Below the pieces are notes generated by a model. It ran no database searches. It saw only the letters and a list, made by a program, of their open reading frames with translations, and was not told where the DNA came from. A stretch of 64,000 nt of DNA from an uncultured Colwellia sp. (GTDB lineage: Bacteria; Pseudomonadota; Gammaproteobacteria; Enterobacterales; Alteromonadaceae), in NCBI GenBank assembly GCA_913063325.1, contig CAJXYE010000004.1:1-64000 (forward strand). Direction: 5' to 3'. How positions within the stretch are numbered: position 1 is the stretch's first letter; the number at the start of each line of letters is the position of its first letter. The position numbers and the translations under genes were made by a program. Shown one piece after another: positions 18,736-36,579 of this stretch.

Positions 18736-18971
18736 CACTATACGATTTTTTGGGATAAGGTATAACTAAAGGTAGTGGTTGTGTTTTCAAATGGCAATAA
18801 AAATAGATAGTGTCAAAAGCGAACTATCTTCTTTATAAACAATAGGTTGATTGTAACTAATTGAGAATCAAAAAAATTAGGGCTAAATGAGTTCGTATGC
18901 AGGAACGTTAATAAAGTTACTGATTTCTTAAATCCCTATTTTCATAAGTGATATACACAATTTATCTTATA

Positions 18972-19883
18972 TCAGGTTCGAACTAAGATCTTGTCTCTAA
19001 CAAATAACCCACCCCAAATACCAGCTAACATGCCTGTTACAGCTCCCAAACCTGCTGGCGAAAAAGCAGGAAGGGCTAACAATAATTGAGAGTCATTTCC
19101 GCCAACGGCTAACGAAGCACCTATCCCCATAAGAGTTCCCGCAAAGAGGTGCTCAACCCAACGTTTTAAATTTAAAGGAACAAACAAAAACTTATTTGTT
19201 CTCCAGGCAGCTAAAAACATACCTAAAAGTAATGCGATAAATAGCAAGTATTGCTCAATTGCAGGCCAGTTTTTTTCACTACCACTAGTCAAAGCATTGC
19301 TTAGTTGGTTTAGTAATCCACTTGGCGGCCATTTAGGCTCATAAAGAAAAATAAACCCAGCAAGTAACCCAATCCCCATCATACTAAACCACAGAGTTTG
19401 TCGTTGCTTACTACCAAGAAAAGCCCAAATAATGAGAGCTAGGGAACCAATAATTAATAGTAAATAAGTTATATTGTCTGGTAACGGGTTCTTCATTACA
19501 TCTACCTTAGGTTGCCAATGGGCTAGTATTGTCCACCCGACTAACCAGCCAACAATTGTAGCGATCATATTAGAATCACCACGAGCTAACTTTCCTAAAG
19601 TAGACACACCACAACCTTGATTAAAGGCTGTGCCTACTCCAAAAAGCACCCCTCCGAAAATAAACCAAGCACTTATTTGATAAGTTCTAAATTTAAGCGG
19701 TATATCTGTGTAATGAGCAAATAAAGAAGCAACCCAAGCTAGAATTCCACTAAAGAGGATGGCTAATAGGAATTCTTTATTGCCTGCTCTCCATTCGTTG
19801 ACTCCTCTAACCATACACAACCCAGTGGACTGCGCTAAAAAACCAAGAATACAAATTAGCATTAGAACGATTGGTAGTAACAT
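18972..19883 (-). CDS. YeeE/YedE-family sulfur-compound permease
   Basis: The 303-aa protein is almost entirely membrane-spanning (about nine helices) and has the family motif FNQGCGVSTLGKLARGDSN with a conserved cysteine. YeeE/YedE (TsuA) proteins import thiosulfate or related sulfur compounds through a path of cysteines. It is divergent from a cysteine desulfurase gene of the Dnd locus, which suggests a role in supplying sulfur for DNA phosphorothioation; this link is inference. An upstream divergent gap of about 235 bp holds the promoters. Inner membrane. Confidence 0.85.
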   Translation of the reverse strand: MLLPIVLMLICILGFLAQSTGLCMVRGVNEWRAGNKEFLLAILFSGILAWVASLFAHYTDIPLKFRTYQISAWFIFGGVLFGVGTAFNQGCGVSTLGKLARGDSNMIATIVGWLVGWTILAHWQPKVDVMKNPLPDNITYLLLIIGSLALIIWAFLGSKQRQTLWFSMMGIGLLAGFIFLYEPKWPPSGLLNQLSNALTSGSEKNWPAIEQYLLFIALLLGMFLAAWRTNKFLFVPLNLKRWVEHLFAGTLMGIGASLAVGGNDSQLLLALPAFSPAGLGAVTGMLAGIWGGLFVRDKILVRT

Positions 19884-20118
19884 TAAAACTACTCCTGTTA
19901 TTTTTCCTCTTAAAGTATGGACTATATTTACTATTTACTCGCTAATTTGTGGCCCCTATTAATTGAGATATATTTGCTGTATTAAAGCTGAAGCATGGAC
20001 ATAAAGTGTAATTCACTTCTGCACGATTAGCTGTAGTTAAAGGAAAATGCCTTTATAGAAGCTTTGATGTTAGAATAATTTTTTCTTCGTACTACAATTT
20101 TCAAGTGACTTTATTCGA

Positions 20119-21234
20119 ATGATTTATTTAGATACAGCAGCTTCCTATCCGCTCCTTCCTGAAGTAAAGGTAGTTTTATCAGATGCTTTTGAAAGCTTAT
20201 ATGCTAATTCAGCTTCTAGCCATTTGTTAGGAGAGCAAGTCTCTGATGAAATTAATAAAGTTCGAGAACAACTAGCAGATCAAATAGGTGCATACCCAAG
20301 TGAAATTATTTTTACGAGTGGTGCGACAGAATCTAATAACATTGCTTTTAAAAGTTTGCTTTTAGGTAACGAAATATCAAAAGATAAAAAGCATATTGTA
20401 ACCACACAGATTGAACATAAATGTGTATTTGCTATATGTGATTACTTAAAATCCATTGGTTACGAAATTACCTACGTGAAACCAAATAAAGATGGAATAA
20501 TTGAAGCTGATTCAGTAGCTAACGCAATCAGACCTGATACGGCTTTAGTTTCTGTGATGCATGTAAATAATGAGCTTGGTACAATTAATCCTATTGCTGA
20601 TATTGGCCAGGCTTGCTTCGATGCTGGAGTATTATTTCATAGTGATGCAGCTCAAAGTTTTCAAAAAACAAATATAGATGCAGATGATTTAAATGTTGAT
20701 GTAATGTCATTCTCCGCTCATAAAATTGGCGGGCCAAAGGGTATAGGTGCAATCTATATTCGTGATTTACGTAAAAGGCATTTAATGCCTGTGATACACG
20801 GAGCTGGTCAAGAAGATGGTTTACGAGGAGGTACTGTTGCTGCACCTTTAATAATAGGGTTTGGTGCCGCTATTAAGTACTTTGAACAATATTATTCAAC
20901 ATTTAAAAAAAAGGAAATAAAAGAATATTTTCTAAGTAAGCTGAATCAAGGAAAAATAAAATTTAGTGAGAATGGACTGAACACATTAGGTCATTGTTTA
21001 TCAATCACACTACCAGAAACTGATACTGAAACATTAGTTCGAAACAATGAAAATGTGCTTAGCTTAGCTCAAGGTTCTGCTTGCTCTTCCAAAGAAATTG
21101 AACCTTCACATGTTCTGACATCAATAGGTTTAAACAGAGAACTTGCAGATAAAACTTTCAGAATCAGTTTCCCTCTCGATATAGAATACGACTCAATCAA
21201 TGTACTAGTTAAAGAAATATTAAAACACTCATAA
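20119..21234 (+). CDS. dndA: cysteine desulfurase, DndA/IscS-type
   Basis: This PLP enzyme releases sulfur from L-cysteine as a persulfide. The PLP lysine is Lys202 in SFSAHKIGGPKG, His100 lies in QIEHK, and the active cysteine is Cys322 in AQGSACSSKE. Length is 371 aa, close to DndA. With no iscU or other Fe-S genes nearby and dndC and dndD in the same locus, its probable role is sulfur donation to DndC for phosphorothioation. It is divergent from the sulfur permease and is followed by a small Cys-rich gene. The ATG has no strong ribosome site. Confidence 0.85.
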   Translation: MIYLDTAASYPLLPEVKVVLSDAFESLYANSASSHLLGEQVSDEINKVREQLADQIGAYPSEIIFTSGATESNNIAFKSLLLGNEISKDKKHIVTTQIEHKCVFAICDYLKSIGYEITYVKPNKDGIIEADSVANAIRPDTALVSVMHVNNELGTINPIADIGQACFDAGVLFHSDAAQSFQKTNIDADDLNVDVMSFSAHKIGGPKGIGAIYIRDLRKRHLMPVIHGAGQEDGLRGGTVAAPLIIGFGAAIKYFEQYYSTFKKKEIKEYFLSKLNQGKIKFSENGLNTLGHCLSITLPETDTETLVRNNENVLSLAQGSACSSKEIEPSHVLTSIGLNRELADKTFRISFPLDIEYDSINVLVKEILKHS

Positions 21235-21406
21235 ATTGAGCCACAGTAATTTTTTAGGCTAGGGATGATAAAAAGCTATCGCCATATAGAAATATTAAAG
21301 TATTTCATCTGTTTGTATTTGCACAATCATCCTTTATGGTCTAATTAATATATCAGCCTATAAAATTAAGATGAAAGGCGTTTAATCCATAACGGAAATA
21401 TATCTA

Positions 21407-21607: not shown

Positions 21608-21620
21608 CGGCTGTAATTGT

Positions 21621-22499
21621 CTACTTATCAATTTTTCTGTTAGCTAACTTGAATTCAGAAATTTTGAAAGAATTTATATCTTGTTTATTCCCTAATATGC
21701 AGGCCAAATCACGAATTAGCATTCTTTCAATTGTAAGCCTATAAGGTGTTAGGGGGTCGGGTAAAACATTATATTTATAGTGTGTCCATTGCTTAATATC
21801 AGGGTGACCTGCATTAAACCTACGAATCATATCTTTAGCTTCACCTACATAAATTAGCTTACTTACCTCATCAAGTAGCATATATATAACGTTTTGAGCA
21901 CCTAGTTCTAATTTATAATTATTTCTTTCAGACCAATCTTGCTTATGAATGCTTAGAGAGTCTTTATCAAGCACCTCTGCGCTTATTCTTTTTAAAGGTG
22001 CAGAATTGACTAAGCGATTAAAAAGATTAGGGAATTGAGGCTTCAATTGGTAATGAGCACTAAAGATAAAGGTCTTGTTGGCAACATCAAACTCAATATC
22101 AATAAATTCCCAAAAAGAAATTTCCTCTTCAATATTTCTATTCGATGAATTTTCAGAAAGTTCTGCCTCCAGGCTTCTCATAAATGACATTAAGTAAGTT
22201 TTTCTTAATTCATCAATGAGTTTCTCTTCAAAATATAATCGGTATCTAAATCCCGTAGAATGTTTGATCTTCGCAACTTGTCCTGTGAAGCTTTTTCGTT
22301 CAAAGCCCTGCCTATTGAGATTGATTTCTACTTGTGCTGATGGATCTTTTTTAGACCTTACATTTTCGAAAGTCTTTTGGATATCCCAAATAATTAATAA
22401 CCATTTAGGAATAGGTGTAGAGCCTTCTTTCAAGAAAGTGGCATCAACTTTTTTTCTCCACATAGGAAAATCGACATTTGAGCGCTCTAACAAAACCAA
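21621..22499 (-). CDS. GIY-YIG endonuclease-domain protein linked to dndC
   Basis: The C-terminal third (about residues 200-270) is a GIY-YIG nuclease domain: VIYML (GIY), IYVGEA (YIG), an Arg in DMIRRF, and a candidate catalytic Glu in IERMLIRDL. The N-terminal 200 residues are unrecognised, mixed alpha/beta, and may sense DNA or bind partners. The gene follows dndC by 8 bp on the same strand, so it belongs to the DUF4007-ATPase-dndC transcription unit. It could be the cleaving effector of this Dnd-type system or a nicking enzyme in modification. Known GIY-YIG enzymes cut DNA one strand at a time. Confidence 0.8.
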   Translation of the reverse strand: MVLLERSNVDFPMWRKKVDATFLKEGSTPIPKWLLIIWDIQKTFENVRSKKDPSAQVEINLNRQGFERKSFTGQVAKIKHSTGFRYRLYFEEKLIDELRKTYLMSFMRSLEAELSENSSNRNIEEEISFWEFIDIEFDVANKTFIFSAHYQLKPQFPNLFNRLVNSAPLKRISAEVLDKDSLSIHKQDWSERNNYKLELGAQNVIYMLLDEVSKLIYVGEAKDMIRRFNAGHPDIKQWTHYKYNVLPDPLTPYRLTIERMLIRDLACILGNKQDINSFKISEFKLANRKIDK

Positions 22500-22507
22500 A
22501 ATTCCTT

Positions 22508-23626
22508 TTATTTATAACAGGTCACACAAGCTCCACCACCTTCGGCTTCATCGTATATCTCATCCATGCTGTCGGTATCTGATACCTTAACTGTTGCTCG
22601 CAATAGGTTTGATCTTCGGTTTAATTTTTTCTCGAATCTTTTAACTCGCAGTTCGTGATTCTCGATAATTTCAATTTTTCTTGTTTCTGATTCTAGCGAA
22701 GAAAGTGGAGTTCCTTTGCCTAGCCAATAAAATGTTCCATTCCCTCGATCATCTTCTGCCTTCTTTTCATATGCTTTAGCTTCTTCGAATGCCTGAGGAT
22801 AAATCTCTTTTAACCTTAACCATTCAATTTTTTGTTGGTAGAAACAAAAGGTGCAGCCACTACGTGATCTCCAACCATAATAACCAGGCTTACCCTGATC
22901 TTTCGATTCAACAATTTTAAGTAACGTTTCTGGCGTAAGTTGGGGTGCTAAAGCAGCACCTTCAACTATCTCCTCAACATCCGTATTTCTTGTTTCAATT
23001 AATTCCTTCATTAAATCAAGCTTAGCTTCGTCAGTTGGGTCTATCGGCTCACCTGTTAAGGAATTAACGAATAACTTTCTGTAAGAAATTACTTCTTCTT
23101 CATTACCCAATAAGTCTGCTTTTCTAAGTATTTCAAAAATATCATCTCGGTCTAATCCATCCTCGCGAAAAGGCATACTGATAGTCAAGTATTCTGAAGT
23201 AACATTATTTGTTAGGAAGCCTTCTCGTGCAGGTTCATCAGCTCTAATACCTACATATGAAATTACTTTGGTATACCCTTCCTTTTCCATTTTTACTTGA
23301 ATCCATTTTTCAAATGGCACTAATTTCATTTGAATAGTACACCACCTCGCCTGAGGTGAAGGTAGGTAATTTTTATGTTGTCTTAAATGGTAATCAAAAT
23401 CCTTTTTTTCTCTATTAGAAGAAAAAACCTCTTCATAAGGGTCAACTATTTTACCAACATACCCCTCTAGTCGGTTTACAAAATCTATCACTTCAGGCAA
23501 TTCTTTACCCGTATCTGTGAAATAATATTGCATATCTAATTCTGGGTAATTATCCCTCATATACATAGCTAAAGCGGCACTATCCTTGCCTCCGGATAAA
23601 CCTAATACGTGTAGAGTCTTTTCCAT
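22508..23626 (-). CDS. dndC: DndC-like PAPS-reductase-family DNA sulfurtransferase component
   Basis: The 372-aa protein has the PP-loop SGGKDSAALA (residues 11-20) of the adenylating PAPS-reductase fold. Cysteine motifs include RWCTIQMK and SGCTFCFYQQKIEWL, plus a terminal ACVTCYK, suitable for a 4Fe-4S cluster. DndC uses ATP and sulfur from DndA to build phosphorothioate links. It is shorter than Streptomyces DndC (about 490 aa), nearer to the minimal versions. It sits 15 bp downstream of the large ATPase gene and 8 bp upstream of the GIY-YIG gene, in one operon. Confidence 0.88.
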   Translation of the reverse strand: MEKTLHVLGLSGGKDSAALAMYMRDNYPELDMQYYFTDTGKELPEVIDFVNRLEGYVGKIVDPYEEVFSSNREKKDFDYHLRQHKNYLPSPQARWCTIQMKLVPFEKWIQVKMEKEGYTKVISYVGIRADEPAREGFLTNNVTSEYLTISMPFREDGLDRDDIFEILRKADLLGNEEEVISYRKLFVNSLTGEPIDPTDEAKLDLMKELIETRNTDVEEIVEGAALAPQLTPETLLKIVESKDQGKPGYYGWRSRSGCTFCFYQQKIEWLRLKEIYPQAFEEAKAYEKKAEDDRGNGTFYWLGKGTPLSSLESETRKIEIIENHELRVKRFEKKLNRRSNLLRATVKVSDTDSMDEIYDEAEGGGACVTCYK

Positions 23627-23641
23627 TATGTCTATCTGCCC

Positions 23642-26600
23642 CTATGCTTCCATTAAATCTTCAAGCATTGTTAAAAGTACGGCTTGCTGCTCAGCTTTAT
23701 CAAGTTTTGAAATACTTTTACTTACTTCTTTTAGTTCACCCTGATATTTTTTATTAACAGCTTTGTACTCAATGTCGCCAAAATCGGATAAGAGAAGGTC
23801 TTGTTTAAACCTGGTAATAATCTCGACCAATACAGAGTTTGCTTTAGAGATAGCATTATCATCCCAGTTTCGCTCTGCTTTTCCCGATAGTAGCGAAATG
23901 ATTGCTGAAACCCATTTTCTATTACTAGAGAACTCCGATAATCGTATAGCAAAAGTTTCTACTTTAGGGTTCGTTGTAAAGCTAGCTACCTTTTTGCAGT
24001 TTTTAACTAGATTTCCTGAAAATGTTATATACCCTCTAATTCTGCTTTCAAATTTAAGGAGTTCTTCTTCATGAGCTTTTTCAAGTTGGTCTTTAATGCT
24101 ACTAATATCGGTCGATTTAATATCATCAATAGATTTATTTTTCCCAAAAATTTGGGGTAGTTCCTTCAATAAGTAATCGTTAGGATCAGACGCAACTTTT
24201 GTTATATCTTTAAACTTTAATAATTCCTTACTTAGATTTTTTGTATTACGAGTCCAAGGAGATAACTTGCTATAAAAAGAAACTAATGTTTGAGCAACAA
24301 CTAAGGGTGATATTTCATCAACGTCACATTTAAAAGGTTGTGCAATTTTATTAAGGTAGTTAATGGTTGAGTGGCCAATCTTTACGTACTGAATGCCTAT
24401 TAATTCAGGCTGCTGAAGAAGCTTCATTGCAAATTCTTCATCTGCGCCATTAATAAAAGTTGATTTACTCGTTACACCATTAAAATCATAAAATGCTAAT
24501 TGATTACTATTCGCTTGCAATAGCGCTAATAACCAGATGGGTATGACACCTTTGGCTAAACCATAGGGTTCTTTACTCCATAGTTCAACTATGTCAGAGG
24601 TTCTAATAATGCCGCTACTATCGACTATAAAATCTAATGTCTCTTCGAATAACGCTTTAAGCTTAGGGTTATCAGTTGAAGGCATAGAAAATTTATACTT
24701 GCCTTCACTATTTTGAATATGTAATCCAAAGTTTTCCAAACTTGAGTAATAAAGCCCCTTCTCCGCAGGGAAAGTCTTATCAGGTAAATTTAAGACGACT
24801 TTGTCTGCATTTTCAGCCATTGCTTTAAGTAGCTTTTTAATCCCAGAATTAGCACTCCCTGATGGTTTAGCCTTGTTTATTAATTCATTAATAATTTTGG
24901 GGGCTTTAGAAAAAATCAGATTTGCAACGAAGGAAGCAACAGAGGACAAAGGTTGTATACTTAATTCTTTACTTTGATATGACCAAATAGACGTAATAAA
25001 TACCCGATCAAGTTCATTAGATAAAGCTTGCTTAAATGAAGTTACTCTAGTGTCTAACTCTCTGATAGCTATTTTATCTCTAACAACTGTAGCTTCTTCT
25101 TTTCTAGCTTTTTCCAATGCAATTAATTCAATCGCAATGTCTTTCAATTTAATCAGTGATTGTGGTTTTCCGACAACTATGTGTTTATTTTCAGTAGTTA
25201 GCTTAGTTAACTGAGAAAAAGCTTTGTTATTTATTGGAATTACAAAATTTAGAAAAGATTTCCCGTGAACAGGCTCAATAGCTAAGTTATTGAGTAATTG
25301 GCTATCAACTGCATTAATGATGAGTTTATTAGCCCATCGCATTGTACCTGTTTTGTGATAATGAGACGTTGCTAAAATACTACTGCTAACATCACATACC
25401 GAGGTCCAATCTACACCAGACTTTAGCTTTTCCTTTTGATTTTTTATCAGACTATTAATATCAATATCACTACCTTCAAAAATAAAGTAGCCATTGTGAG
25501 CCGAGCGAAAAATAATTACAGTCCATTTTTCTAAATCAACGAGCGCACTATCTATTTCCGCTTGTTTATACCCTTTACACTCAAAGTAGTTTAGAAGAAA
25601 TTTTTTGGTGGCGTGGAAATGCTGATTAAAACCAAATAAAGTAAGTAAAGATACAATTTTTGTGATTGAACTGTGGAGATTACCTCCCCTTTTAGTTGCT
25701 CTATCGATAGCATCACAACTTTCCAACCACGCTTTACTATCAGGTGAAGTAACTATTATGTGGTATAAGTTATGATGTAGATAATCCCATAAATTATCAG
25801 TTGAATATAATTCACTTAAATCGCTACCTTGCTCATAGTTATCAGCTAAAAACTCACGGAAAGCGTATTTTTCATGAGAGGCTAAAAATCCGAACAAGCT
25901 TCTTTCATTTTGTGAAAAACTTCTTCTAGAAATGGGACCTAAAAGCAAACTAACTAAAGGGTCTAAAGGGAGGGTTTTAAATAGATCAGACGTATTTCTT
26001 GTTTTACTTTTAAAGCAATTATTAACTACTTCAACAGACTGTTGATGTTGATTGGTAAGCTGTTCATTAATTTTATCTGATGATTTACTAATTGCATCAC
26101 CTAGCAAAAATAATGATTCGTCAACAGAAGGGTTATAACCTAAATCTCTATACCTTCCTTGTACTTTTGCCCAATCTTCCTGAAGTTTTGAGTCTTTGTT
26201 TTTCGCATACTCAGTAAAGGGCTGATGCAAAAAGCTGATTAAAATAATTTGATTGTCAGATTGTTGGGCAATATCAGCTAGCTGCTGAAATATATATAAA
26301 TCTTTGTTTTCGTTAGAACAATAATCGAGAGCCTTGCCCATTTCATCAAGTAAAATTAAAACACCGTCTTCTTTAATTGATTTAGTATTTAACAGTTCTT
26401 TAATTCTATCTAAGCATTCATTGTCTGTGAAATTACATAAATCACTTTTGTTAAGTTTAACTTTTAAAGAGGAAGCAATTGATAATAAAAGAGCATGTGC
26501 AGGAGATTCCATAGCACACACATGTTTTACTACTTTCCAGCCTTTGTTAATTTTAAAACGAGTAAGGAATTCAGACTTCAATCCTTCAGCACAATCTAAA

Positions 26601-26887
26601 GAATCTTCAGCATAGTCGCGTTCATCTTTATTAGTAGAAAGCAATAAAGATAAAAATAGTGCAATTGTAGACTTACCCGATCCATAAGGCCCAGTAATAC
26701 TATATGCTCGTTGCTCGCTACCTTCGAAATCTCTGCTGATTGTTTCTAGTACATTAATTGCTGTGCCATGTAGGATAAAGTTATCAATAAATACTTTACT
26801 ATCATCTAACTGCCCATCAATACGAGTAGAGCTTTTATATCGTTGCATTACGTCTACTAGTAATTTATCCATTTGCACACTCTTCAT
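23642..26887 (-). CDS. large P-loop ATPase of the Dnd-type locus, 1081 aa
   Basis: It has Walker A GPYGSGKST (residues 66-74) and Walker B DGVLILLDEMGK (about 174-185, acidic pair Asp181-Glu182), in an ATPase domain reminiscent of BREX BrxC-like and other defence P-loop proteins. The remaining 800 residues are largely unrecognised and helical. Its start overlaps the DUF4007 gene by 23 bp and it precedes dndC. From memory, DUF4007 and ATPase genes occur with Dnd genes in the archaeal DndCDEA-PbeABCD type; I cannot assign Pbe letters with confidence. It may be the motor of target surveillance or replication block. Confidence 0.75.
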   Translation of the reverse strand: MKSVQMDKLLVDVMQRYKSSTRIDGQLDDSKVFIDNFILHGTAINVLETISRDFEGSEQRAYSITGPYGSGKSTIALFLSLLLSTNKDERDYAEDSLDCAEGLKSEFLTRFKINKGWKVVKHVCAMESPAHALLLSIASSLKVKLNKSDLCNFTDNECLDRIKELLNTKSIKEDGVLILLDEMGKALDYCSNENKDLYIFQQLADIAQQSDNQIILISFLHQPFTEYAKNKDSKLQEDWAKVQGRYRDLGYNPSVDESLFLLGDAISKSSDKINEQLTNQHQQSVEVVNNCFKSKTRNTSDLFKTLPLDPLVSLLLGPISRRSFSQNERSLFGFLASHEKYAFREFLADNYEQGSDLSELYSTDNLWDYLHHNLYHIIVTSPDSKAWLESCDAIDRATKRGGNLHSSITKIVSLLTLFGFNQHFHATKKFLLNYFECKGYKQAEIDSALVDLEKWTVIIFRSAHNGYFIFEGSDIDINSLIKNQKEKLKSGVDWTSVCDVSSSILATSHYHKTGTMRWANKLIINAVDSQLLNNLAIEPVHGKSFLNFVIPINNKAFSQLTKLTTENKHIVVGKPQSLIKLKDIAIELIALEKARKEEATVVRDKIAIRELDTRVTSFKQALSNELDRVFITSIWSYQSKELSIQPLSSVASFVANLIFSKAPKIINELINKAKPSGSANSGIKKLLKAMAENADKVVLNLPDKTFPAEKGLYYSSLENFGLHIQNSEGKYKFSMPSTDNPKLKALFEETLDFIVDSSGIIRTSDIVELWSKEPYGLAKGVIPIWLLALLQANSNQLAFYDFNGVTSKSTFINGADEEFAMKLLQQPELIGIQYVKIGHSTINYLNKIAQPFKCDVDEISPLVVAQTLVSFYSKLSPWTRNTKNLSKELLKFKDITKVASDPNDYLLKELPQIFGKNKSIDDIKSTDISSIKDQLEKAHEEELLKFESRIRGYITFSGNLVKNCKKVASFTTNPKVETFAIRLSEFSSNRKWVSAIISLLSGKAERNWDDNAISKANSVLVEIITRFKQDLLLSDFGDIEYKAVNKKYQGELKEVSKSISKLDKAEQQAVLLTMLEDLMEA

Positions 26888-27806: not shown

Positions 27807-28095
27807 TCCTGTTCTACCTCTGGAGAAATTGCCCAGAGGTAATACTATATGTTTATTCTTCAAGGTTAAAGTAAAATATTGGAATAAAACTGTACATTTA
27901 AACAGCAGGCTGCCGTTTTTACTTACACTCTGTTAACTAATTGTAATATTATGATTTTGTTTGTTTTTTCTATTGTGTTCTTTAATCTATATCAATAGAA
28001 TGAATGTAGTATTGTTGTACAATAATTTTAAACGAGTAACGGATTTTGATTTGCCATGGAAAACGGAATTATGGCAATGGTTAGCAAGGACTAAT
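27807..28095. promoter_or_regulatory. divergent promoter region of the Dnd-type locus
   Basis: This AT-rich gap separates the DUF4007 start (27806, minus) from the preferred helicase start (28096, plus) and must serve both arms. Both genes have possible upstream in-frame starts inside it (TTG 27863 and TTG 27961 or ATG 28000). I see no clear operator palindrome. Confidence 0.4.
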
Positions 28096-30288
28096 ATGAC
28101 TTTCTTAGATATAAAATTCCCCGACAACTTCGAATATAGCTCTGATTCTGACAATTTACCGTTAGAGTTTTATCTTCAAACCTTCCCTAAATCAAAAACA
28201 GTATATTTAAAACTCGGTTACTTTAGTTCATCTGCAATTAGGGTACTTGCATATGGCTTCGCCCAATTTATTTATAACGGCGGCACTATAAAAATAGTCA
28301 CAAATCATTTTTTATATGGTTCCGATAAAGAACTACTAGATTCAAATACTGCAACTGATAGTGAGGTAGATGAACAACTTATTTCAAATTTAACTTGGCT
28401 AAAGGATTCTCTAACAAGTGAGTCTGAACAGTTCTTTAATTGTATAAAGTATCTAATTAAAAATAATAGAGTGGAAATAATTCCTGTAATGTTATTTCCC
28501 AATAAAATGGCTCATTACAAGCAGGGCATTTTTATTGATAAAGATGAAAAAACAATATTCATGGATGGGAGCTGTAACTTTACAGCAAATGGCCTGCTAG
28601 AAAATGGTGAAAACATTTCTGTTTACCGTTCATGGGGCGACACATTTGAACAAAGAAAAATTGCAGATAAACGACTAGATCTTGCCAAAATATGTAATAA
28701 GGATAACGATCAATATATATACTTAGATCCTGAAAAGGTACTTGATGCTGTCTCCTCCTTAGGTAAAGAAAAGTCGGTTGAAAACTTACTTTTAGACGAG
28801 AAGGAATTACTTAAAAACTCTAAGCTCAAAACCAATACAGCAATTATTGACAAATATAAAGAAAAGCTTGATGTCCTAATTGAAAAAGAGAAATACGAGC
28901 CGAAATTTCCTTTTTCATCTTCACCCAGAGAGTATCAAATTGATGCTTATAACGCTTGGTTAGGCAATTCGAAACAAGGCATATTTGCCATGGCGACTGG
29001 CACAGGTAAAACAATTACATCATTAAATTGTCTTCTAAATGAATATAAAAAGGAAAATAAGTACCAAGCCATTATATTGGTTCCATCAAAAGACCTTCTT
29101 AATCAATGGTCTGAAGAGGTATCCTCTTTTAATTTTTCAAACATCTACCATGTTTCATCTGAATATAAGTGGAAAGCCCCTCTTAACCAATTAACAGCCC
29201 ATCTCTTATTCGATAAAGATGCCTCTTTTATTATAATAAGTACCTATCAAACTTTTTCTGATGAAAAATTTGGTAGATATAGAAAAGCATTACCTAAAAG
29301 TACAATATTAATCGCGGATGAAGCTCATAACATTGGTAGTGCTAAAATGAAATTGCTTTTACCAGAATTACCGTTTGATAAAAGATTAGCATTGTCAGCA
29401 ACTCCAAAAAGAAAATTTGATGAAGAAGGAAATAGTGTTATCGAAGAATTCTTCAATTCAAGAGAGCCATACACTTATTCTTTCTCTATGGAAAAAGCAA
29501 TTCAGAAAGGTATTTTATGCCATTACAATTATTTCCCTAAAATAGTTTCTTTAACTGATGATGAGCTAGATGAGTACATCAAAATCAGCAAAAAGCTAGC
29601 AAGGTTCTACAATAGTGATTCGGGTAAATTTATAAAGAACGACATGCTTGAGAAACTTTTATTGCAAAGAAAAAGAATAATCCACAAGGCTGAAAATAAA
29701 AAATCTGCATTTAAATCAATATTAACAAGTCAACTCAGAGAAAAAGGAAATTTAGATTATTCATTTGTATATGCTCCGGAAGGTAGCGACCAAGAAGGTC
29801 AAAATATTATGAGTGAGTACCTTTCAATACTTGAAGAAATATCTCCAGGCACAAGAGCACTTGCCTATACAGGCGAAACCAAAAATAAAAAAGAAATAAT
29901 GACCCGCTTTGAACAAGGAACAATAAACTCATTATTTTCAATGAAGTGTCTAGATGAAGGCGTAGATATTCCAAGAGCTGAATTAGCGATTTTTTGCTCG
30001 AGTACAGGTAATCCTCGTCAATTTATTCAACGTAGAGGTAGAGTACTACGTAAACATCCAGATAAAGACTTTGCGACAATATATGACTTAGTCGTAGTTC
30101 CAAACTCTGATTCTGACCCATCTACATTTCATATAGAGAAAAGCTTAATAAAAGAAGAGCTGATTAGAGTTATATATTTCGCTTCTCTTTCCGACAACTA
30201 CTACGAAGCAATGACTAAATTTGAAGATATTGCAAACTTTTATGATTTGGATTTATACGCTATTCATAACGAGCTAGGAGAACATTAA
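28096..30288 (+). CDS. PLD-like plus SF2 helicase, DNA phosphorothioation system restriction enzyme type
   Basis: The N-terminal part has a phospholipase-D-like region (NGGTIKIVTNH and HYKQGIFIDKDEKTIFMDGSCNFT, an HxK(x)4D HKD motif). This is followed by an SF2 helicase with MATGTGKT, ADEAH and a C-terminal QFIQRRGRVLR motif VI. This architecture matches the annotated Dnd-system restriction enzyme family. It probably unwinds or translocates on DNA and cleaves non-thioated invader DNA. The frame opens at TTG 27961 with an ATG at 28000, but AAGGA six bases before ATG 28096 and the family-like N-terminus favour the 730-aa form. Its stop overlaps the next ATG as TAATG. Confidence 0.82.
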   Translation: MTFLDIKFPDNFEYSSDSDNLPLEFYLQTFPKSKTVYLKLGYFSSSAIRVLAYGFAQFIYNGGTIKIVTNHFLYGSDKELLDSNTATDSEVDEQLISNLTWLKDSLTSESEQFFNCIKYLIKNNRVEIIPVMLFPNKMAHYKQGIFIDKDEKTIFMDGSCNFTANGLLENGENISVYRSWGDTFEQRKIADKRLDLAKICNKDNDQYIYLDPEKVLDAVSSLGKEKSVENLLLDEKELLKNSKLKTNTAIIDKYKEKLDVLIEKEKYEPKFPFSSSPREYQIDAYNAWLGNSKQGIFAMATGTGKTITSLNCLLNEYKKENKYQAIILVPSKDLLNQWSEEVSSFNFSNIYHVSSEYKWKAPLNQLTAHLLFDKDASFIIISTYQTFSDEKFGRYRKALPKSTILIADEAHNIGSAKMKLLLPELPFDKRLALSATPKRKFDEEGNSVIEEFFNSREPYTYSFSMEKAIQKGILCHYNYFPKIVSLTDDELDEYIKISKKLARFYNSDSGKFIKNDMLEKLLLQRKRIIHKAENKKSAFKSILTSQLREKGNLDYSFVYAPEGSDQEGQNIMSEYLSILEEISPGTRALAYTGETKNKKEIMTRFEQGTINSLFSMKCLDEGVDIPRAELAIFCSSTGNPRQFIQRRGRVLRKHPDKDFATIYDLVVVPNSDSDPSTFHIEKSLIKEELIRVIYFASLSDNYYEAMTKFEDIANFYDLDLYAIHNELGEH

Positions 30289-30521
30289 TGGCTAAAGATA
30301 GAAACGAAATGCTTAAGTATTTTTTGAAAAATAAAGAATTTATTGTATTTTTAGAAAATGAAAAAATATGTCCAACCTCTATATCTTTCTCTGAGCCTTC
30401 AAATAATTTACTTGTAGAAGCTATGAAAAAAATGATTCTTAGTTATTGCTTAGATGACAGTAATTTACAAACACAAAAAAAAATTAATGCTTTAATTTTA
30501 AGTGAGGTAAGAAACTCATGA
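30288..30521 (+). CDS. hypothetical 77-aa protein between helicase and dndD
   Basis: The protein is small, mostly helical and unrecognised. It starts in a TAATG overlap with the helicase stop and ends with a 4-bp ATGA overlap with dndD. Such strict coupling implies that it works with DndD or the helicase. It has no ribbon-helix-helix pattern of canonical DndE. It may be a small adaptor or an assembly factor. Confidence 0.7.
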   Translation: MAKDRNEMLKYFLKNKEFIVFLENEKICPTSISFSEPSNNLLVEAMKKMILSYCLDDSNLQTQKKINALILSEVRNS

Positions 30522-32623
30522 TTATTAGTTCTATTTCAATGAAAAACTTCCAATGTTATTCAGGAGAGCATGAGTCAAATACGCTTCACTTTTCTGAAGG
30601 ATTAAATCTTATTATTGGTGACAACGGTGGTGGCAAATCTAAGCTTTATGATGCATTTTATTGGGTTATTCATAACCAGGTATTTCAGTCTGATCAAAGA
30701 CAAATGATAAATACCAGAATATATAAGGATAATTTGATTTCAGATAAAGCTAAAGTTAACTGTCAAGTAGGAGAAACCATTTCAGCTGAGGTGACTTTAA
30801 TTGTAACGAGTACAGGTGATAAAAAATATAAATTAGAAAGGATCTTTAAAGCAAAAAAATTAGCTGACCGAGAATGGGAGTCAGATACAGATTCAACAAT
30901 ATTAATATCCGAATTCTTGCAAACTAAATGGAATCTACTCCCCTCAGCTAAATACAGCCATATTATAAATAGAGTTATACCTGGCCATATAAAACCTTAC
31001 ATGTGGTTTCAAGGTGAGCAAGTAGATAGTTTAATGGATTTAGCAGATAGTTCTGCATTATCCCAGGTTGTAAATCTTCTTTCTGATATATCGGATTATG
31101 ATGATCTTATATCTATCGCTAAAAACGGAGCAAGTAAAGCAGATAAAGATCTAAAGAAACATAAGAGCACGATCAGCTCAGATGAAGTAAAGAGTAAATA
31201 TTTGAATACTCAATTAGAAAAATGTGATGGCAATATTGAGACGTTTACCAGCCAAATTGATGCATGCGATCAGCAAATTGAAACGGCGAAATTAAAAATT
31301 GAAGAGCTCATAAGTAAAGTAGATGATGCTGAAGCAAAAGCCAAATACAAAGCAGAAAAAAAAGTACTAGAGGATGAATATAAGTCCTTAGAAAAGCAGT
31401 TACTAGAAGCGAATAATAATTCATCAAATGGTCTTTTTCGAAAGCATTGGGTATTAAAAAACATTTCACCTTTCTTTAAAAAATTTGATGATAAATACAA
31501 AGATTACACAATAAAACACAATGAAAAAATTAATGCAGGTAAAGCTAATGAGATTAAACTTCCTCTAAATATGCCACGACCTGTTCATGTTGAGCAAATG
31601 ATTGAAGATGAATCTTGTTATGTCTGTGGCCGTTCAGCGCCTAAAGGTAGTGAAGCTCATGAGCATATAATTAGTCTAATCAAACGGAAGCCTGCCAAAA
31701 ACATATTCGAAAATGATTTTTCAAATGAATTTGAAAATCTTTACAATAATAATTTAAGGTATGGCGTTGCTATTGATGGTATTGATGAGTCAATTAAAAG
31801 CAATTTCAATAATATAATAGCAATTAAAAATAAATTAACGAAAAAATCTAACGATATTAAAGAAATTGATAGTCAGTTTGATATCTTAATTGAAGAAGAT
31901 AAATCTGAAGATATATTAGGCTCATACAAAACACATACAAAAACTAAAGAAAAATTTGAGACTAATAAAACTAATATATCGGATAAATTAAAATTTGCCT
32001 TAAAAGAAAAGGAAGAAACTCAAAGTAAAATCAATAACTTAGTTAAAGGCAAAGTAGATAAAGTAAAAGAAGCCGCTGACTTTATTTTTTCAAATTTAGA
32101 ACAGTTAGCTAAGTCAACGAAACAGCATGTATTTGAAAGTATCATTTCTGAGTTAGAAGGGTTCTCAAATGATATATTTAAGGATATGACTGCTAAGAAT
32201 ACATCTATAAAAGGTCAAATAAAGTTTAAAAAACTAGGATATGGGGTATATATACCAGAAATTGTAGATAGCGATGGGTATATTATTAATTCTCCGAATG
32301 ACTCCAATATAATTTTAGTTAAGCTGGCTTTAATCATGGCTATATTAACAGCTCGAGCAAAATGGAGTGATAACTACACACTAATATCTGATGCACCGAC
32401 ATCAAAAATGGCTGAGAATTATACTTTTGGTTTTTACAAAACACTTAGTAATAAGTTTAAACAAAGTATCGTCACAACTTATGACTTTTTAGAAGATGAT
32501 AGGAAAGCGGTTTTGAAAAATTTTAATATTGGCAATGTTTATCAAATAGAACCATCCTCACCAGCTGGAGATAGTGATAATAGGTCTGATTTAAGTGTTA
32601 ATATTCGAGAGGTATTACTATGA
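30518..32623 (+). CDS. dndD: DndD-like SMC/Rad50-type ATPase
   Basis: The 701-aa protein has Walker A IGDNGGGKSK (residues 33-42), long coiled coils flanking a zinc hook CYVCGRSAPKG near residue 365, and a C-terminal ATPase lobe with YTLISDAPTSKMA as Walker B-like segment. DndD, an SMC-like ATPase, is thought to open or nick DNA at the modification motif for DndC. Length is close to the usual 650-700 aa. It is overlapped on both sides by small unknown genes (ATGA junctions), giving a helicase-77aa-dndD-159aa transcription unit divergent from the DUF4007 arm. Confidence 0.88.
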   Translation: MIISSISMKNFQCYSGEHESNTLHFSEGLNLIIGDNGGGKSKLYDAFYWVIHNQVFQSDQRQMINTRIYKDNLISDKAKVNCQVGETISAEVTLIVTSTGDKKYKLERIFKAKKLADREWESDTDSTILISEFLQTKWNLLPSAKYSHIINRVIPGHIKPYMWFQGEQVDSLMDLADSSALSQVVNLLSDISDYDDLISIAKNGASKADKDLKKHKSTISSDEVKSKYLNTQLEKCDGNIETFTSQIDACDQQIETAKLKIEELISKVDDAEAKAKYKAEKKVLEDEYKSLEKQLLEANNNSSNGLFRKHWVLKNISPFFKKFDDKYKDYTIKHNEKINAGKANEIKLPLNMPRPVHVEQMIEDESCYVCGRSAPKGSEAHEHIISLIKRKPAKNIFENDFSNEFENLYNNNLRYGVAIDGIDESIKSNFNNIIAIKNKLTKKSNDIKEIDSQFDILIEEDKSEDILGSYKTHTKTKEKFETNKTNISDKLKFALKEKEETQSKINNLVKGKVDKVKEAADFIFSNLEQLAKSTKQHVFESIISELEGFSNDIFKDMTAKNTSIKGQIKFKKLGYGVYIPEIVDSDGYIINSPNDSNIILVKLALIMAILTARAKWSDNYTLISDAPTSKMAENYTFGFYKTLSNKFKQSIVTTYDFLEDDRKAVLKNFNIGNVYQIEPSSPAGDSDNRSDLSVNIREVLL

Positions 32624-33099
32624 TTTCATTACAAGAAAAATTCGGAAACCTTAAACCTGGTTATATGCCAAAATATAAAGACTTTATTGATCAGGTTGCT
32701 CAGTTTGGTGGGGGAGCAGAAGGAGATAAATATACACAAGCCAAAAGTTTTTCAAATACTTACGAGTTATATATCTACGCTTTTTTTATTGGTTTGTACA
32801 ACGACAAAAGAATAGATCTTACAGATGAAGATAAATTAACTAGTTTTTGGGAAATGAAAAACTGGAAACCTGAACCATTAACGAATAGCCTCTTAACATG
32901 TGCCATTGCTGTGTCTGATTTTGATATGAATGCAATTGAAGAGAAAGATAATGACTTTATTTCTAAGCAAATCAAACTAGTGAAAAACGAGATAGAAGCA
33001 TTCGCTAATGGAGGGTTAGAGCTTATAAAAAGTGCAATAGATCAAGACCCTGAGTTATTAGAAGATGATATGTACTTTATAAAGTTATTATCTACTTAA
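32620..33099 (+). CDS. uncharacterised 159-aa protein in the DndE position
   Basis: I do not recognise the family. A conserved-looking core is KSFSNTYELYIYAFFIGLY, followed by an acidic C-terminal half. It occupies the place where dndE follows dndD in classical operons, but it is longer and lacks the DndE DNA-binding pattern, so it is not called dndE. It overlaps dndD by 4 bp (ATGA). Its TAA stop lies within a TTAA that is also the stop of the convergent methyltransferase gene, so the two transcripts overlap tail to tail. Confidence 0.7.
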   Translation: MISLQEKFGNLKPGYMPKYKDFIDQVAQFGGGAEGDKYTQAKSFSNTYELYIYAFFIGLYNDKRIDLTDEDKLTSFWEMKNWKPEPLTNSLLTCAIAVSDFDMNAIEEKDNDFISKQIKLVKNEIEAFANGGLELIKSAIDQDPELLEDDMYFIKLLST

Positions 33100-35132
33100 T
33101 CAAGTAAGTAAAACCTATATCCTTTTCTCATATAGTTTTTACTTAAAAGTATATTATTTAAGTATTCAATATTTAAACTAGAGTATTCATGCTCTAAATT
33201 AGATAGTATTTTATAAAGGCGTTTATTAAACGCCTTTTGCTTTTTATAGTCCTTAAAACTCTCATCAATATATTCAATTTTGTCTAATAGTAATGGCCTT
33301 CGACTTTCATTAATATAATCAAAAAAGTCTACATCTTGCTCTGCCATCTTTATTTTTACACGTTCTTTGAGTTGAGGTAATGGTGAGTCATCAAAACCTT
33401 CATAACCTAATAAAGTCACCTTGCCTGATGTGATATGTATCTTAATTAGTTGAATGTCATCGAGCTCACCATACAGCTGTAATGCTGAATAAACGTAAAC
33501 TCTAAGTAGAGGTGATGATTCATCAATAAAGTTTTTATGGATTGTAAGGGAGTGTGGCTGTTCGTTTTCTAGCGTTAACTTAGATGCAGGCAGTATCTCC
33601 TTAGCTTTTAAGCACTCTGTTGTGATTTGTTCAATATTAGCAATATCAAACAGAAGTTCTTTAGCTTGGTTTAATGCAATTTTATGTGTATCAAAAAAGG
33701 CTTTAATATCTCGCTTTAGGTCATCAGGGAGGTGTGTGTAAGACTTTCTTCCTTCAAACATGCCTAACGCAAAGTAGATAAGTAAATCTTCTTTTCGCAT
33801 CGCTGCTGCAAGCTCTAACTCTTCTTGGCCAAACCAATCAGTTACTAATTTAAGCGCCTTCTTATTGGACCCAATGATATCTTTAATTTCTTCGCTTTTG
33901 TTGAACTCTTCATTAGCTGGAACGCGCCCATAAGCTAAACAACTAAGCCAAAAAGATTCTAGGAGCTCTTGGTGCTTTGTGAAGAGTATTCTGGCTTGAT
34001 CTTCACTAACGGGCTTAGGTTCGGTTAGTTGTTTCCATTGATAACTTCGTTTATGTCTATTTTGAAGAAAGTGCTGCTCTAGAGCCTTATCTTTAAATAC
34101 ATAAAATATGCCTGGAGATATGGCTATAGGCTCATCATCAAGCGTTCTTTCAATATAGGACTTTAATTCAGCTTGTGAGAAGTACTTTTGGAAGGTATTT
34201 CTCGAAGTAATAACACCGTCTTTGTATGGTTTGAATTGAGCTAAGTAGCTTTCATTAGCTAGCATTGCAGAAATGACTAATAATTTACCTGTTGCTTCCC
34301 ATGCACCTAAAACAGCACTAATTCTTTCATCTTGATCTTCAATAACATTAATCACAAAGCCAATATTTACAATTTCAGAATTAACTATTTCTGAATCTGG
34401 TCGAAAATTTGGATCCCAACCAAGAACGTCTATACCATGTGCCTCTAACTCCCTAAGGTCATCTCCTCGGCCACATCCATAATCAAATATTGAATATTCA
34501 CCTGATAAGAATCCGTTTTTGGCGAGTGTCTTCATCGGGGCTGATAGTTCATGCCTTACTATGGCAGTTTTATGTCTATCTATTTCTTTCTCGTTTTCAA
34601 TATTATTGTTTACCGCTGAACTTCTAAATAAGCGACCATCAACTAGCTCATAACCATGCTTTTCAATTAATCGCTCCCATGAGCTCTTAAATCCAATCAT
34701 ACGACTATTCTCATATAGACCAGCAGCTTCACCTTCTTGTGTGAGCATAGAAAAGTGTTCATGAAATTCATGGTTCTTGGAAATCATTGTTTCTTTCCGA
34801 TGAATAATTGGAGGGTTTTCTTGTTCGGAATAGTTTGTAACCCGGTGAGATAGCTTTGTTAAATCTACATTTACACTCTGTTCTAGGGCGGGATATGAGT
34901 CTTCGAAAAATAATGGATAATTTAACAATGATAAACGAAAATCCCTTCTAAAGACTTTAATCAGATTCCAATTATCGTCATCAATTTTTAATGCTTTTGC
35001 GACAATTTTAATGAATTTAGACAGCACTTCAGGTATATCTGAAAATGTATCTTTATGAAAATAAATTGAGTCTGGTAGTTTCTTACCTACTTCAAGTGAG
35101 TTGACTAATTCTTTAAATTGTTCAGCATTCAT
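33096..35132 (-). CDS. DNA phosphorothioation-associated putative methyltransferase
   Basis: The 678-aa protein has a SAM-binding motif SIFDYGCGRGDDLRELEAHG (near residues 214-233) followed by IDVLGWDPNF, as in the Dnd-associated methyltransferase family. The flanking N- and C-terminal regions are long and unrecognised. It may modify DNA beside the thioated site or act on another substrate; no experiment is known to me for this subtype. It overlaps the upstream M15-like gene by 4 bp and converges on the 159-aa gene through a shared TTAA, placing it firmly in the locus. Confidence 0.8.
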   Translation of the reverse strand: MNAEQFKELVNSLEVGKKLPDSIYFHKDTFSDIPEVLSKFIKIVAKALKIDDDNWNLIKVFRRDFRLSLLNYPLFFEDSYPALEQSVNVDLTKLSHRVTNYSEQENPPIIHRKETMISKNHEFHEHFSMLTQEGEAAGLYENSRMIGFKSSWERLIEKHGYELVDGRLFRSSAVNNNIENEKEIDRHKTAIVRHELSAPMKTLAKNGFLSGEYSIFDYGCGRGDDLRELEAHGIDVLGWDPNFRPDSEIVNSEIVNIGFVINVIEDQDERISAVLGAWEATGKLLVISAMLANESYLAQFKPYKDGVITSRNTFQKYFSQAELKSYIERTLDDEPIAISPGIFYVFKDKALEQHFLQNRHKRSYQWKQLTEPKPVSEDQARILFTKHQELLESFWLSCLAYGRVPANEEFNKSEEIKDIIGSNKKALKLVTDWFGQEELELAAAMRKEDLLIYFALGMFEGRKSYTHLPDDLKRDIKAFFDTHKIALNQAKELLFDIANIEQITTECLKAKEILPASKLTLENEQPHSLTIHKNFIDESSPLLRVYVYSALQLYGELDDIQLIKIHITSGKVTLLGYEGFDDSPLPQLKERVKIKMAEQDVDFFDYINESRRPLLLDKIEYIDESFKDYKKQKAFNKRLYKILSNLEHEYSSLNIEYLNNILLSKNYMRKGYRFYLLD

Positions 35133-35827
35133 TGTATTAATTCTTCCGCTAGTACTTTAGCTTCATTGCCGTAGGCTTTTCTACCAGGAATTCGTCTACC
35201 TTTGTCACTGACATTCATAACTTGTAGGTGCCTTTCTGAGTCAATCCCTACGCTTACATGTAATGGTCTATCATTTCCGTAATAGTAAATTTTATCAAAA
35301 CCTAAATTATTCACTATAAATAGCATAACTTTATCCATTTTATCTTCATAACCATTAACAATGAAATCACAGGCTAAGCCGTGCCTTTTGCATATGTGAT
35401 TATTAGAATTATTTAACTCTGATGCCGCGTGTTGGTCAATTGAAGGATACGTACCTGACGAGCTGTTTTTCTGAATATATCTGTTTAGTTCAGATGAGAC
35501 AAAACCATAGGTAATCTTAATATCACCAAACTCTTTACTGATAGGTAGTAAAATTGCTTCGATAAGCATTAAAGTGGAATTGATTGATTCTACTTCTTTA
35601 GGAGAGTTATCTATTGATATAGGATGTTTTACTTGATACCAATTCAACAATTGATTCGCTATAGGATGCTTTAGTAGTAATTGCTTATCATGGAGTTTGT
35701 ATAAAAAGGCATTCCCTTCTTTTACAAACTTTAATTTACCTGAAACTCGCATGTGCATCAGTTCACAATCTGACACGCCCAATAGTTGTTTGAAATCCTT
35801 AGAGGAAAATAATAATTCTTGTGTCAT
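35129..35827 (-). CDS. peptidase M15-like protein of the Dnd-type locus
   Basis: The C-terminal two thirds resemble an M15 (D-Ala-D-Ala carboxypeptidase/Hedgehog-like) fold. KITYGFVSSELNR, an HGLACDFIV segment with the His-x6-Asp type pattern and a late LHVSVG supply the three expected metal ligands. The N-terminal 60 residues (LLFSSKDFKQLLGVSDCELMHM) look like a small helix-turn-helix. There is no signal peptide, so cell-wall hydrolysis is unlikely. It is the first gene of a two-gene minus-strand unit with the putative methyltransferase. The substrate is unknown; a non-peptidase role is possible. Confidence 0.65.
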   Translation of the reverse strand: MTQELLFSSKDFKQLLGVSDCELMHMRVSGKLKFVKEGNAFLYKLHDKQLLLKHPIANQLLNWYQVKHPISIDNSPKEVESINSTLMLIEAILLPISKEFGDIKITYGFVSSELNRYIQKNSSSGTYPSIDQHAASELNNSNNHICKRHGLACDFIVNGYEDKMDKVMLFIVNNLGFDKIYYYGNDRPLHVSVGIDSERHLQVMNVSDKGRRIPGRKAYGNEAKVLAEELIQ

Positions 35828-36066
35828 AGATTACGGATATCAGGAATTGAATAATAACTATATTACATCAAGAATAAATTGTATTGGGAATTCTGAAAAG
35901 TCTGGACTTCTCAAATTTCACTAGACTGTTTATCTGCTGACTGAAAATAAAACATTAACGATGCGTTAGTGTATTGATATTATGTTGTTTTATTCATAAT
36001 GTGATAATGTTTCTGTATTATTCATAACAACTAAATTACACACTGTAATCATACAAGGACTATTTA

Positions 36067-36579
36067 ATGATTTGCCAATATTCGGGTTTATGTCAAAACT
36101 GTGATGAGAAAGTTATAATTACAATACTTGAAGGCAAGTTATTAGAAAGTTGTCAAAACTGTGGCGGCAGACCTTTCAACCTCAAAGTCTATAAAGGGCT
36201 TGTATATGTCGTAGATAATCCTAAACAGATGGGGTTAAAAATAGGGATGAGCGAAAAAACTGTTGAACAACGAATTAAGGCTCTTAATTCTACGGGGGTT
36301 GTTGGTAGTTTTAAGCCTATTGTTACATTTCCTTCTGATAACCCCAAAAAAGATGAAAAGAAAATTCATGATAAGCTTGCCAAGTTTAATATTTCAAAAG
36401 AACATTTTAATCTTGATTCTGTTGAAGCCGCATTAAAATGTTATCGAATATTAAATAGAAGAAAGCCTATATTTTATAACAAAAACATAGAAAAAGAATT
36501 CTGGGAGCAGATTGAAAAAGATCGTCAAGAAATACAAAGATGTTTAAAAGGTAAGAGTGAAAATCCTTATGCAGTCTAG
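36067..36579 (+). CDS. GIY-YIG (T5orf172-type) nuclease-family protein
   Basis: The 170-aa protein starts with a zinc-binding pair of CxxC motifs (LCQNCDEK and SCQNCGGR) and continues with a T5orf172/Mug113-like GIY-YIG domain (VYVVDNPKQMGLKIGMSEKTVEQRIKALN, about residues 48-76). It ends with an Arg-rich helix. Phage and transposon proteins of this type are presumed DNA endonucleases. It is the last gene before the transposon's noncoding right end and is transcribed separately, with AAGGA before its ATG. Two TATTCATAA repeats (35991-35999 and 36019-36027) lie in its upstream region. Confidence 0.78.
   Translation: MICQYSGLCQNCDEKVIITILEGKLLESCQNCGGRPFNLKVYKGLVYVVDNPKQMGLKIGMSEKTVEQRIKALNSTGVVGSFKPIVTFPSDNPKKDEKKIHDKLAKFNISKEHFNLDSVEAALKCYRILNRRKPIFYNKNIEKEFWEQIEKDRQEIQRCLKGKSENPYAV

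Follow-up and report, generated by a model that had tools for sequence, protein, structure and literature searches.

SspABCD together with SspE is reportedly a phosphorothioate (PT) defence system, described by Xiong in 2020. SspABCD is the module for single-strand PT in characterised systems, for which roles of the Ssp proteins are also given (PMC8092258, PMC10853773, PMC12707154), and it has been described with SspFGH as well (PMC8092258). Haloarchaea carry a DndCDEA-PbeABCD system (PMC6459918). In the CxC-ABC/DndE systems, PbeA is an HKD-SF2 protein, PbeB a small protein, PbeC a CxC ABC ATPase and PbeD a relative of DndE, and the partners are DndD systems or cytosine methylases (PMC10853773). 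In the literature pairings, the partner of Ssp is SspE or SspFGH, and that of Pbe is Dnd or a base methylase. SspABCD and PbeABCD are both treated in PMC10853773, PMC12707154, PMC11676413, PMC8053081 and PMC7461809, both are named in PMC9239217, PMC9646914, PMC11662687 and PMC9239176, and DUF4007 appears together with phosphorothioation in PMC12839542. No description of Ssp paired with Pbe was found in the mostly open literature searched; subscription papers or preprints could hold one, and the genomic contexts of the sequences behind the PADLOC models lay outside this search. Here, we analyzed a stretch of 64,000 nucleotides from an uncultured Colwellia sp. (assembly GCA_913063325.1, contig CAJXYE010000004.1, positions 1 to 64,000; “the window”), in which a locus at 18972-36579 carries Ssp and Pbe genes side by side.

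We consider this locus likely to be a PT defence system of SspABCD-PbeABCD composition, because all four Ssp genes were identified, all four Pbe positions are filled, the combination recurs in other genomes, the Ssp-linked PbeA proteins cluster and the Pbe cassette differs between close relatives. An earlier note on this DNA had placed a phosphorothioation-type defence locus here, in two divergent arms and a convergent pair. The profile scans found Ssp and Pbe genes in the span given there, and a check of frames, strands and layout showed all genes to be open and arranged as proposed. The strand order is sspA (+), then the GIY-YIG gene, sspD, sspC and sspB (-), pbeA, pbeC and pbeD (+), a methyltransferase gene and a gene for 232 amino acids (-), and a T5orf172 gene (+). 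sspB and pbeA are divergent neighbours, and the pbeD and methyltransferase genes are convergent with a 4-base overlap. The genes of the two modules are:

20119-21234, + strand: sspA, cysteine desulfurase (PADLOC SspA 414.9 bits, DndA 384.5)
22508-23626, - strand: sspD, PP-loop sulfurtransferase (PADLOC SspD 350.8 bits, 1.6e-105)
23642-26887, - strand: sspC, AAA+ ATPase (PADLOC SspC 1440 bits, BrxC 215)
26865-27863, probable start near 27806, - strand: sspB, DUF4007 protein (PF13182 8.7e-78; PADLOC SspB 289 bits, 1.1e-86)
27961-30288, probable start at ATG 28096, + strand: pbeA, one-motif PLD (HKD) domain and SF2 helicase (PADLOC PbeA 910.9 bits)
30288-30521, + strand: pbeB, small protein of 77 amino acids, assigned by position and size; overlaps pbeA and pbeC
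30518-32623, + strand: pbeC, coiled-coil ABC ATPase (PADLOC PbeC 97.4 bits)
32620-33099, + strand: pbeD, TIGR04062-like small protein of 159 amino acids (E 0.0046, 17.1 bits; cut-off 74.25)

SspB, SspC, SspD and the desulfurase are present together and make up a complete SspABCD set by profile scans. SspA, SspC, SspD, PbeA and PbeC all contain family motifs of known role. In SspA these are SAHK and SACSS, which we take to be the pyridoxal-phosphate lysine and the catalytic cysteine site; SspC has a Walker A motif (GPYGSGKS) and LLDE, and SspD has SGGKDS and two CxxC motifs. The probable start of SspB is supported by its relative in a second Colwellia locus (L002), which has 313 amino acids and aligns from residue 18. 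The sspD gene had been taken for dndC, but it reaches only 25.6 bits with the PADLOC DndC model, and TIGR03183 (DndC) gives 19.6 bits against a cut-off of 290.4. The gene earlier called dndA does encode a desulfurase, which is near both families but closer to SspA; its match to TIGR03235 (DndA) is below the cut-off (352 of 480 bits). DUF4007 and the large ATPase had been regarded as features of the archaeal DndCDEA-PbeABCD type. They are SspB and SspC and lie outside the archaeal Pbe set.

DndC, DndD and DndE, which define a canonical Dnd system, were not identified in the locus. TIGR03183 had no match in the genome (87.6% complete) at E 0.001, and the same holds for DUF262, representing SspE. 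The DndE profile matched none of the window open reading frames tested (picked ones of at least 50 amino acids at 10-45 kb). Dnd queries from Pontibrevibacter reached 17 bits for DndC and 20 bits for DndD and gave no match for DndB and DndE. With a complete SspABCD modification half, the lack of DndB and DndE, which the earlier note had also failed to recognise, is expected. SspF, SspG and SspH queries from locus L003 gave no match at 40 bits within 15 kb of the window's sspB and none among the tested frames, where very divergent copies could escape. PglZ and BrxL of Type 4 BREX were not among the matches listed for ten locus proteins (for PbeC, 25 of 37).

On the restriction side, PbeA shows the fusion of a PLD (HKD) motif to an SF2 helicase that characterises the family. 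The motifs HxKxGIFxD, GSxN, GTGKT, DEAH and QRRGR were found, and the PLD motifs are kept in 22 of 22 aligned PbeA sequences, including that of the window. Its match to TIGR04095 has an E value of 6e-123, yet only 411 of 600 bits. The pbeB gene was read from the sequence and, like the PbeD position of 32620-33099, had been overlooked before; relatives have open reading frames of 74-88 amino acids directly 5' of pbeC. The product of 30518-32623, formerly named DndD, is nearest to PbeC, with PADLOC scores of 97 bits for PbeC, 69 for LmuB and 55 for DndD. It has the Walker A motif GDNGGGKS and a CYVC hook. Among 18 aligned PbeC sequences the hook is CxC in 15 and CxxC in the window, G219 and Aurantiacibacter. 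TIGR04062 is matched by 9 of 14 aligned proteins at the PbeD position; a profile search with the PbeD alignment against the PDB gave nothing useful.

The locus thus shares the same four modification genes with SspABCD-SspE but has Pbe genes, and its genome has no DUF262 match at the threshold given above. With SspABCD-SspFGH it has the modification module in common, and in L003 SspFGH occupies the slot of the pbe genes in the window, whereas the L003 proteins find no counterpart near the window's sspB. The PbeA-B-C-D order and the set of a PLD-helicase, an ABC ATPase and two small proteins are those of haloarchaeal DndCDEA-PbeABCD (PMC6459918). The window, however, would modify DNA via SspABCD, and in the tree its PbeA is placed closer to the Ssp-linked sequences than to those linked to Dnd. 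PMC10853773 equates PbeA-D with components of the CxC-ABC/DndE systems, which differ in their partners and in the hook, which is CxxC in the window. The members of the Pbe half, in which the locus resembles the archaeal system, are the PLD-helicase as PbeA, the DndD of the earlier note as PbeC, and PbeB and PbeD as the small proteins. The earlier note's proposal of a hybrid or undescribed system stands in so far as Ssp is combined with Pbe, outside the literature combinations found, but a Dnd basis does not apply, the modification half being SspABCD.

The recurrence of the pairing was analyzed in 23 distinct SspB-positive genomes. These come from an order set (295 genomes, DUF4007 in 9), a phylum set (398 genomes, DUF4007 in 11, two of them common to the order set) and five loci (L002-L006; records of Colwellia, Catenovulum and Thalassotalea) picked for likeness to the window's SspC. 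TIGR04095 at E 0.001 matches all 14 control genomes and at 1e-50 none, so that only strong matches were counted. A TIGR04095 match above 300 bits is present in 4 of the 23 genomes, each about 6 kb or less from sspB, and the next best reaches 99 bits. Without the window and the five likeness-picked loci, 2 of 17 genomes (G101, G453) have a strong match. At 1e-50, TIGR04095 was found in 4/295 genomes of the order set (G000, G101, G219, G257) and in 6/398 of the phylum set (G000, G323, G381, G453, G525, G606). Six of the positive genomes lack DUF4007. Three of them (G219, G257, G606) carry Dnd genes close to the match; in the remaining three, neither Ssp nor Dnd was seen in the fetched stretch, which is short in some cases.

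In total, eight distinct Ssp-Pbe loci were obtained from Gammaproteobacteria, Alphaproteobacteria and IMG/VR contigs: the window, L002, G101, G453, L103, L104, L157 and L170. L103 is located on a plasmid of Rhizobium indigoferae (NZ_CP140639.1). On the Sphingomonadaceae plasmid CP099618.1 (L104), sspABCD-pbeABCD are all encoded by the same strand, and the ends of neighbouring genes touch or overlap; the Ssp and Pbe genes of L170 are likewise on the same strand with touching ends. When viral contigs were scanned with an SspB alignment, 25 loci were obtained, several of which end before sspD is reached. Four have Ssp and Pbe; as L156 and L171 are identical to stretches of L157 and L170, respectively, these four represent two distinct sequences. 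A close-match viral scan with the window's PbeA confirmed no relative; the SspB scan later gave L170, which carries one. All four Pbe positions are filled in 7 of 7 loci of sufficient length (L002 ends inside pbeC). In each of the seven, a PbeB-sized open reading frame (74-88 amino acids) directly precedes pbeC; in the annotation of the R. indigoferae record, this frame is shorter. A match to the PbeD profile was also found in 7/7, where the window, G101, L103 and L104 are members of the profile by construction and L157, L170 and G453 are not (the G453 protein is near that of L104).

A tree of 24 PbeA sequences, an uneven sample of fetched PbeA, requires two changes of the Ssp label against a mean of 6.4 in shuffles, and 0 of 500 shuffles were as low. 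The PbeA of the window and of L170 form a pair with 100/100 support. The comparative search proposed in the earlier note yielded eight loci with clustered Ssp-linked PbeA, which support the view that the SspABCD-PbeABCD pairing looks like a separate antiviral defence subtype.

The comparison with L002, from a Colwellia metagenome-assembled genome (MAG), suggests how the Pbe genes move. The window and L002 have the same divergent sspB-pbeA layout and 88.8% DNA identity over 5.5 kb of sspD-sspC-sspB. This identity ends at window position 27997, before the probable pbeA start, and the PbeA proteins are only about 31% identical. On a second contig of the MAG, which begins within the methyltransferase gene (92%), the 232-amino-acid gene (84%) and an HI0933 gene (80%) follow; altogether, the genes flanking the Pbe cassette show 80-94% protein identity. 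For the HI0933 gene adjoining the locus, Colwellia sp. 12G3 has a counterpart with 93% identity. The L002 locus thus appears to lie at the same place, with a different Pbe cassette, GIY-YIG region and stretch beside HI0933. We propose that the Pbe genes behave as a cassette that would be exchanged at the intergenic seam between sspB and pbeA.

Several points weigh against the SspABCD-PbeABCD assignment. With the window's genome left out, Ssp and Pbe do not co-occur significantly at the genome level (Fisher test; p 0.080 for the order set and 0.120 for the phylum set); both families are rare in these sets. The case for the pairing rests on adjacency, operon structure and the tree. The PbeA tree cannot separate one Ssp-linked origin from two (approximately unbiased test, p 0.238, 24 rows; a single Ssp clade is also unrejected with 22 rows, p 0.362), its Ssp rows include two near-copies, which favours clustering, and two PbeA rows of unassigned context (G525 and Lactiplantibacillus) are placed next to Ssp rows. 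Clustering is weaker in the PbeC tree, which requires three changes, a number as low in 60 of 500 shuffles (18 rows, without L157 and L170). The window's PbeA lies under the curated TIGR04095 cut-off, as does every surveyed match (0/295, 0/398 and 0/23 above it), its PbeC hook is CxxC, not CxC, and the TIGR04062 match of its PbeD is weak. A profile comparison of PbeD with DndE was not significant either (E 0.029, probability 1.7%), which leaves a DndE identity of PbeD unsupported. Finally, L002 is on two contigs with the right cassette seam outside view, and its status as one locus is deduced.

Ssp and Pbe could also be two independent systems that are neighbours in a defence island, with Pbe using another mark, e.g., base methylation, or none. 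This seems rather unlikely to us, although the non-significant co-occurrence speaks for it. In addition, 320 of 553 PbeAC are reported to have no dndCD in their neighbourhood, and 155 of these lie close to a methyltransferase gene (PMC6459918); three plasmid PbeA of the present set adjoin DNA methylases, and a methyltransferase gene adjoins pbeD in the window. The same-strand operons of L104 and L170, the divergent layout common to the window and L002 and the clustering of Ssp-linked PbeA speak against independent systems. The methyltransferase gene (TIGR04096) occurs together with dndBCD (14/15 methyltransferase loci lacking DUF4007, picked by methyltransferase match) and at Ssp loci without Pbe and is therefore not a Pbe-specific mark. 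A lower probability is given to a Pbe half that is a remnant or inactive, with the GIY-YIG gene of the sspBCD operon as the true effector. That gene is co-directional with sspD at a distance of 8 bases, and PbeC and PbeD are divergent; but the four pbe frames are open, the PLD motifs of PbeA are intact in all aligned sequences, and the GIY-YIG protein has no match in L002, which keeps the Pbe cassette, or in the other compared loci. A canonical or atypical Dnd system is very improbable. In its favour, SspA is closely related to DndA (415 and 385 bits) and PbeC matches DndD models at 55 bits, but SspD exceeds DndC by 351 to 26 bits, the TIGR03183 and DndE searches were negative in the scopes given above, and DUF4007 with SspC is a hallmark of Ssp. 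A canonical Dnd identity was rejected, as the profile scores favour Ssp over Dnd.

For an SspABCD-PbeABCD system, we infer Ssp-Pbe biochemistry, reading of PT by PbeC-PbeD and an anti-phage function. SspA would draw sulfur from cysteine, and SspD would activate and transfer it. The site would be chosen and opened by SspC and SspB, which would also insert PT; judged from characterised Ssp systems, only one strand would probably be marked. PbeABCD would be the restriction half, with PbeA, an SF2 helicase with one PLD motif, probably acting as a dimer. PbeC-PbeD may scan the DNA and read its PT status, after which PbeA would act on unmarked DNA and block replication with or without cleavage. The archaeal Pbe was described to block replication without DNA cleavage (PMC6459918), and cleavage has been argued for Pbe on the basis of the HKD motif (PMC10853773). 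Since the PLD motif is present in 22/22 aligned PbeA, cleavage stays possible. It is also conceivable, if improbable, that Ssp-Pbe is an old heritable subtype whose ABC-ATPase/PbeD reader is specialised for asymmetric single-strand PT, and that the conserved methyltransferase and its Hedgehog/M15-like partner add a second chemical mark at or next to the PT, with two marks then identifying self.

Pbe is one of several restriction modules beside Ssp. In a census of the 23 SspB-positive genomes (phmmer score of 40 bits or more, up to 15 kb from sspB), Pbe was found in four (window, L002, G101, G453), SspFGH in six and SspE-like genes in six (L004, G101, G212, G225, G232, G302); these counts are lower bounds, as five of the 23 were likeness-picked and the queries came from few loci. 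Three genomes had no module detected (G161, G167, G521), of which G521 has FGH-like genes further off, and three loci had two kinds. SspFGH of L003, confirmed by models, is located divergently upstream of sspB. In L004 and L006 this slot is occupied by a third module, which consists of an SF2 helicase (about 550 amino acids), a GHKL ATPase (about 600) and a PLD nuclease (about 305-320). It was found in seven genomes (L004, L006, G208 (L068), G302, G328, G350, G509), with the PLD gene detected in six. On viral contigs, L155, L168 and L176 have the helicase and the GHKL ATPase, L173 and L175 the helicase only and L158 the GHKL ATPase only. GHKL ATPases and HKD nucleases in restriction-modification operons were described in 2008 (PMC2292703); the trio in connection with phosphorothioation was not found in the literature searched. 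Another arrangement was seen in G167 (L064:14620-19748), where a second weak DUF4007 match (290 amino acids) and a 1258-amino-acid SspC-like ATPase follow a normal SspBCD set. The IMG/VR contig 3300045135_003095 (L134/L137/L168), classed as viral, contains the methyltransferase and its small partner besides SspABCD, together with the helicase and the GHKL ATPase.

The remaining genes of the locus are:

18972-19883, - strand: YeeE/YedE-type sulfur transporter (PF04143 1.9e-18), divergent from sspA
21621-22499, - strand: GIY-YIG-domain protein (PF01541 22.8 bits, cut-off 22.6), terminal gene of the sspBCD operon
33096-35132, - strand: TIGR04096 phosphorothioation-associated putative methyltransferase (674 bits, cut-off 150)
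35129-35827, - strand: protein of 232 amino acids with a weak Hedgehog/M15-like signal, methyltransferase partner; the domain is fused to the methyltransferase C-terminus in relatives
36067-36579, + strand: T5orf172-domain protein (PF10544 2e-10), possible accessory

A transporter relative stands beside SspA in L002, L005 and L006, i.e., in 4/6 loci with the window counted, and none was found beside SspA in L003 and L004. The transporter possibly supplies sulfur for the modification. The GIY-YIG assignment of the earlier note lies just at the Pfam cut-off. The T5orf172 domain presumably belongs to the GIY-YIG superfamily as well.

The methyltransferase has a DYGCGRG motif, and its terminal domains resemble each other (3e-04). 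Its model (mean predicted local distance difference test score (pLDDT) 78, predicted TM-score 0.42) has a class I S-adenosylmethionine methyltransferase fold as best Foldseek match (E 3e-04). Reading it as a DNA base methylase is unsupported, as the matches listed are by description mostly small-molecule or tRNA class I methyltransferases. The gene lies within 15 kb of sspB in 9 of the 23 SspB-positive genomes and also at Ssp loci without Pbe. Of 15 methyltransferase loci without DUF4007, picked by methyltransferase match, 14 have DndB, DndC and DndD matches; the fifteenth is an 8-kb contig. The 232-amino-acid domain was found encoded on its own in 11 genomes, each of which contributed to its profile. 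It is fused to the methyltransferase C-terminus in G328, G382, G521 and G625, non-members of the profile, and on the viral contig L133 (L133:234-2858), giving a protein of about 856-874 amino acids. Methyltransferase and small partner thus form what is by sequence a conserved pair.

In a search of the 232-amino-acid profile against the PDB, 19 of 21 matches up to E 10 were Hedgehog proteins (best E 0.054). The M15-like signal named in the earlier note is thus visible, weakly, in the sequence, but the fold search did not bear it out: the AlphaFold model (mean pLDDT 73.5, five sequences) matched nothing in Foldseek at E 0.001, the matches listed (50 of 373) included neither a Hedgehog nor an M15 chain, and a Pfam scan of 12 aligned family members found no M15. 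The invariant residues of the family include Cys146, Asp154 and His190, which may form a metal site.

Left of the locus, three genes of no recognised function (16846-18738) are conserved in L002 (77-82%), and L006 has weak matches to two of these; a phosphoesterase (16091-16849) had no match in this comparison. An Rfam scan of 11-41 kb gave no match, and a promoter scan was uninformative (49 sites against 80.7 expected in shuffles).

The analysis also exposed the helicase-GHKL ATPase-PLD nuclease trio beside Ssp and a methyltransferase-partner fusion that is shared with Dnd-linked genes. The window and L002 are a ready pair for asking which features of its modification partner a restriction module requires. 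If the recurrent subtype holds true, one restriction family would read both the double-strand PT of Dnd and the single-strand PT of Ssp, or would be split into readers of each.

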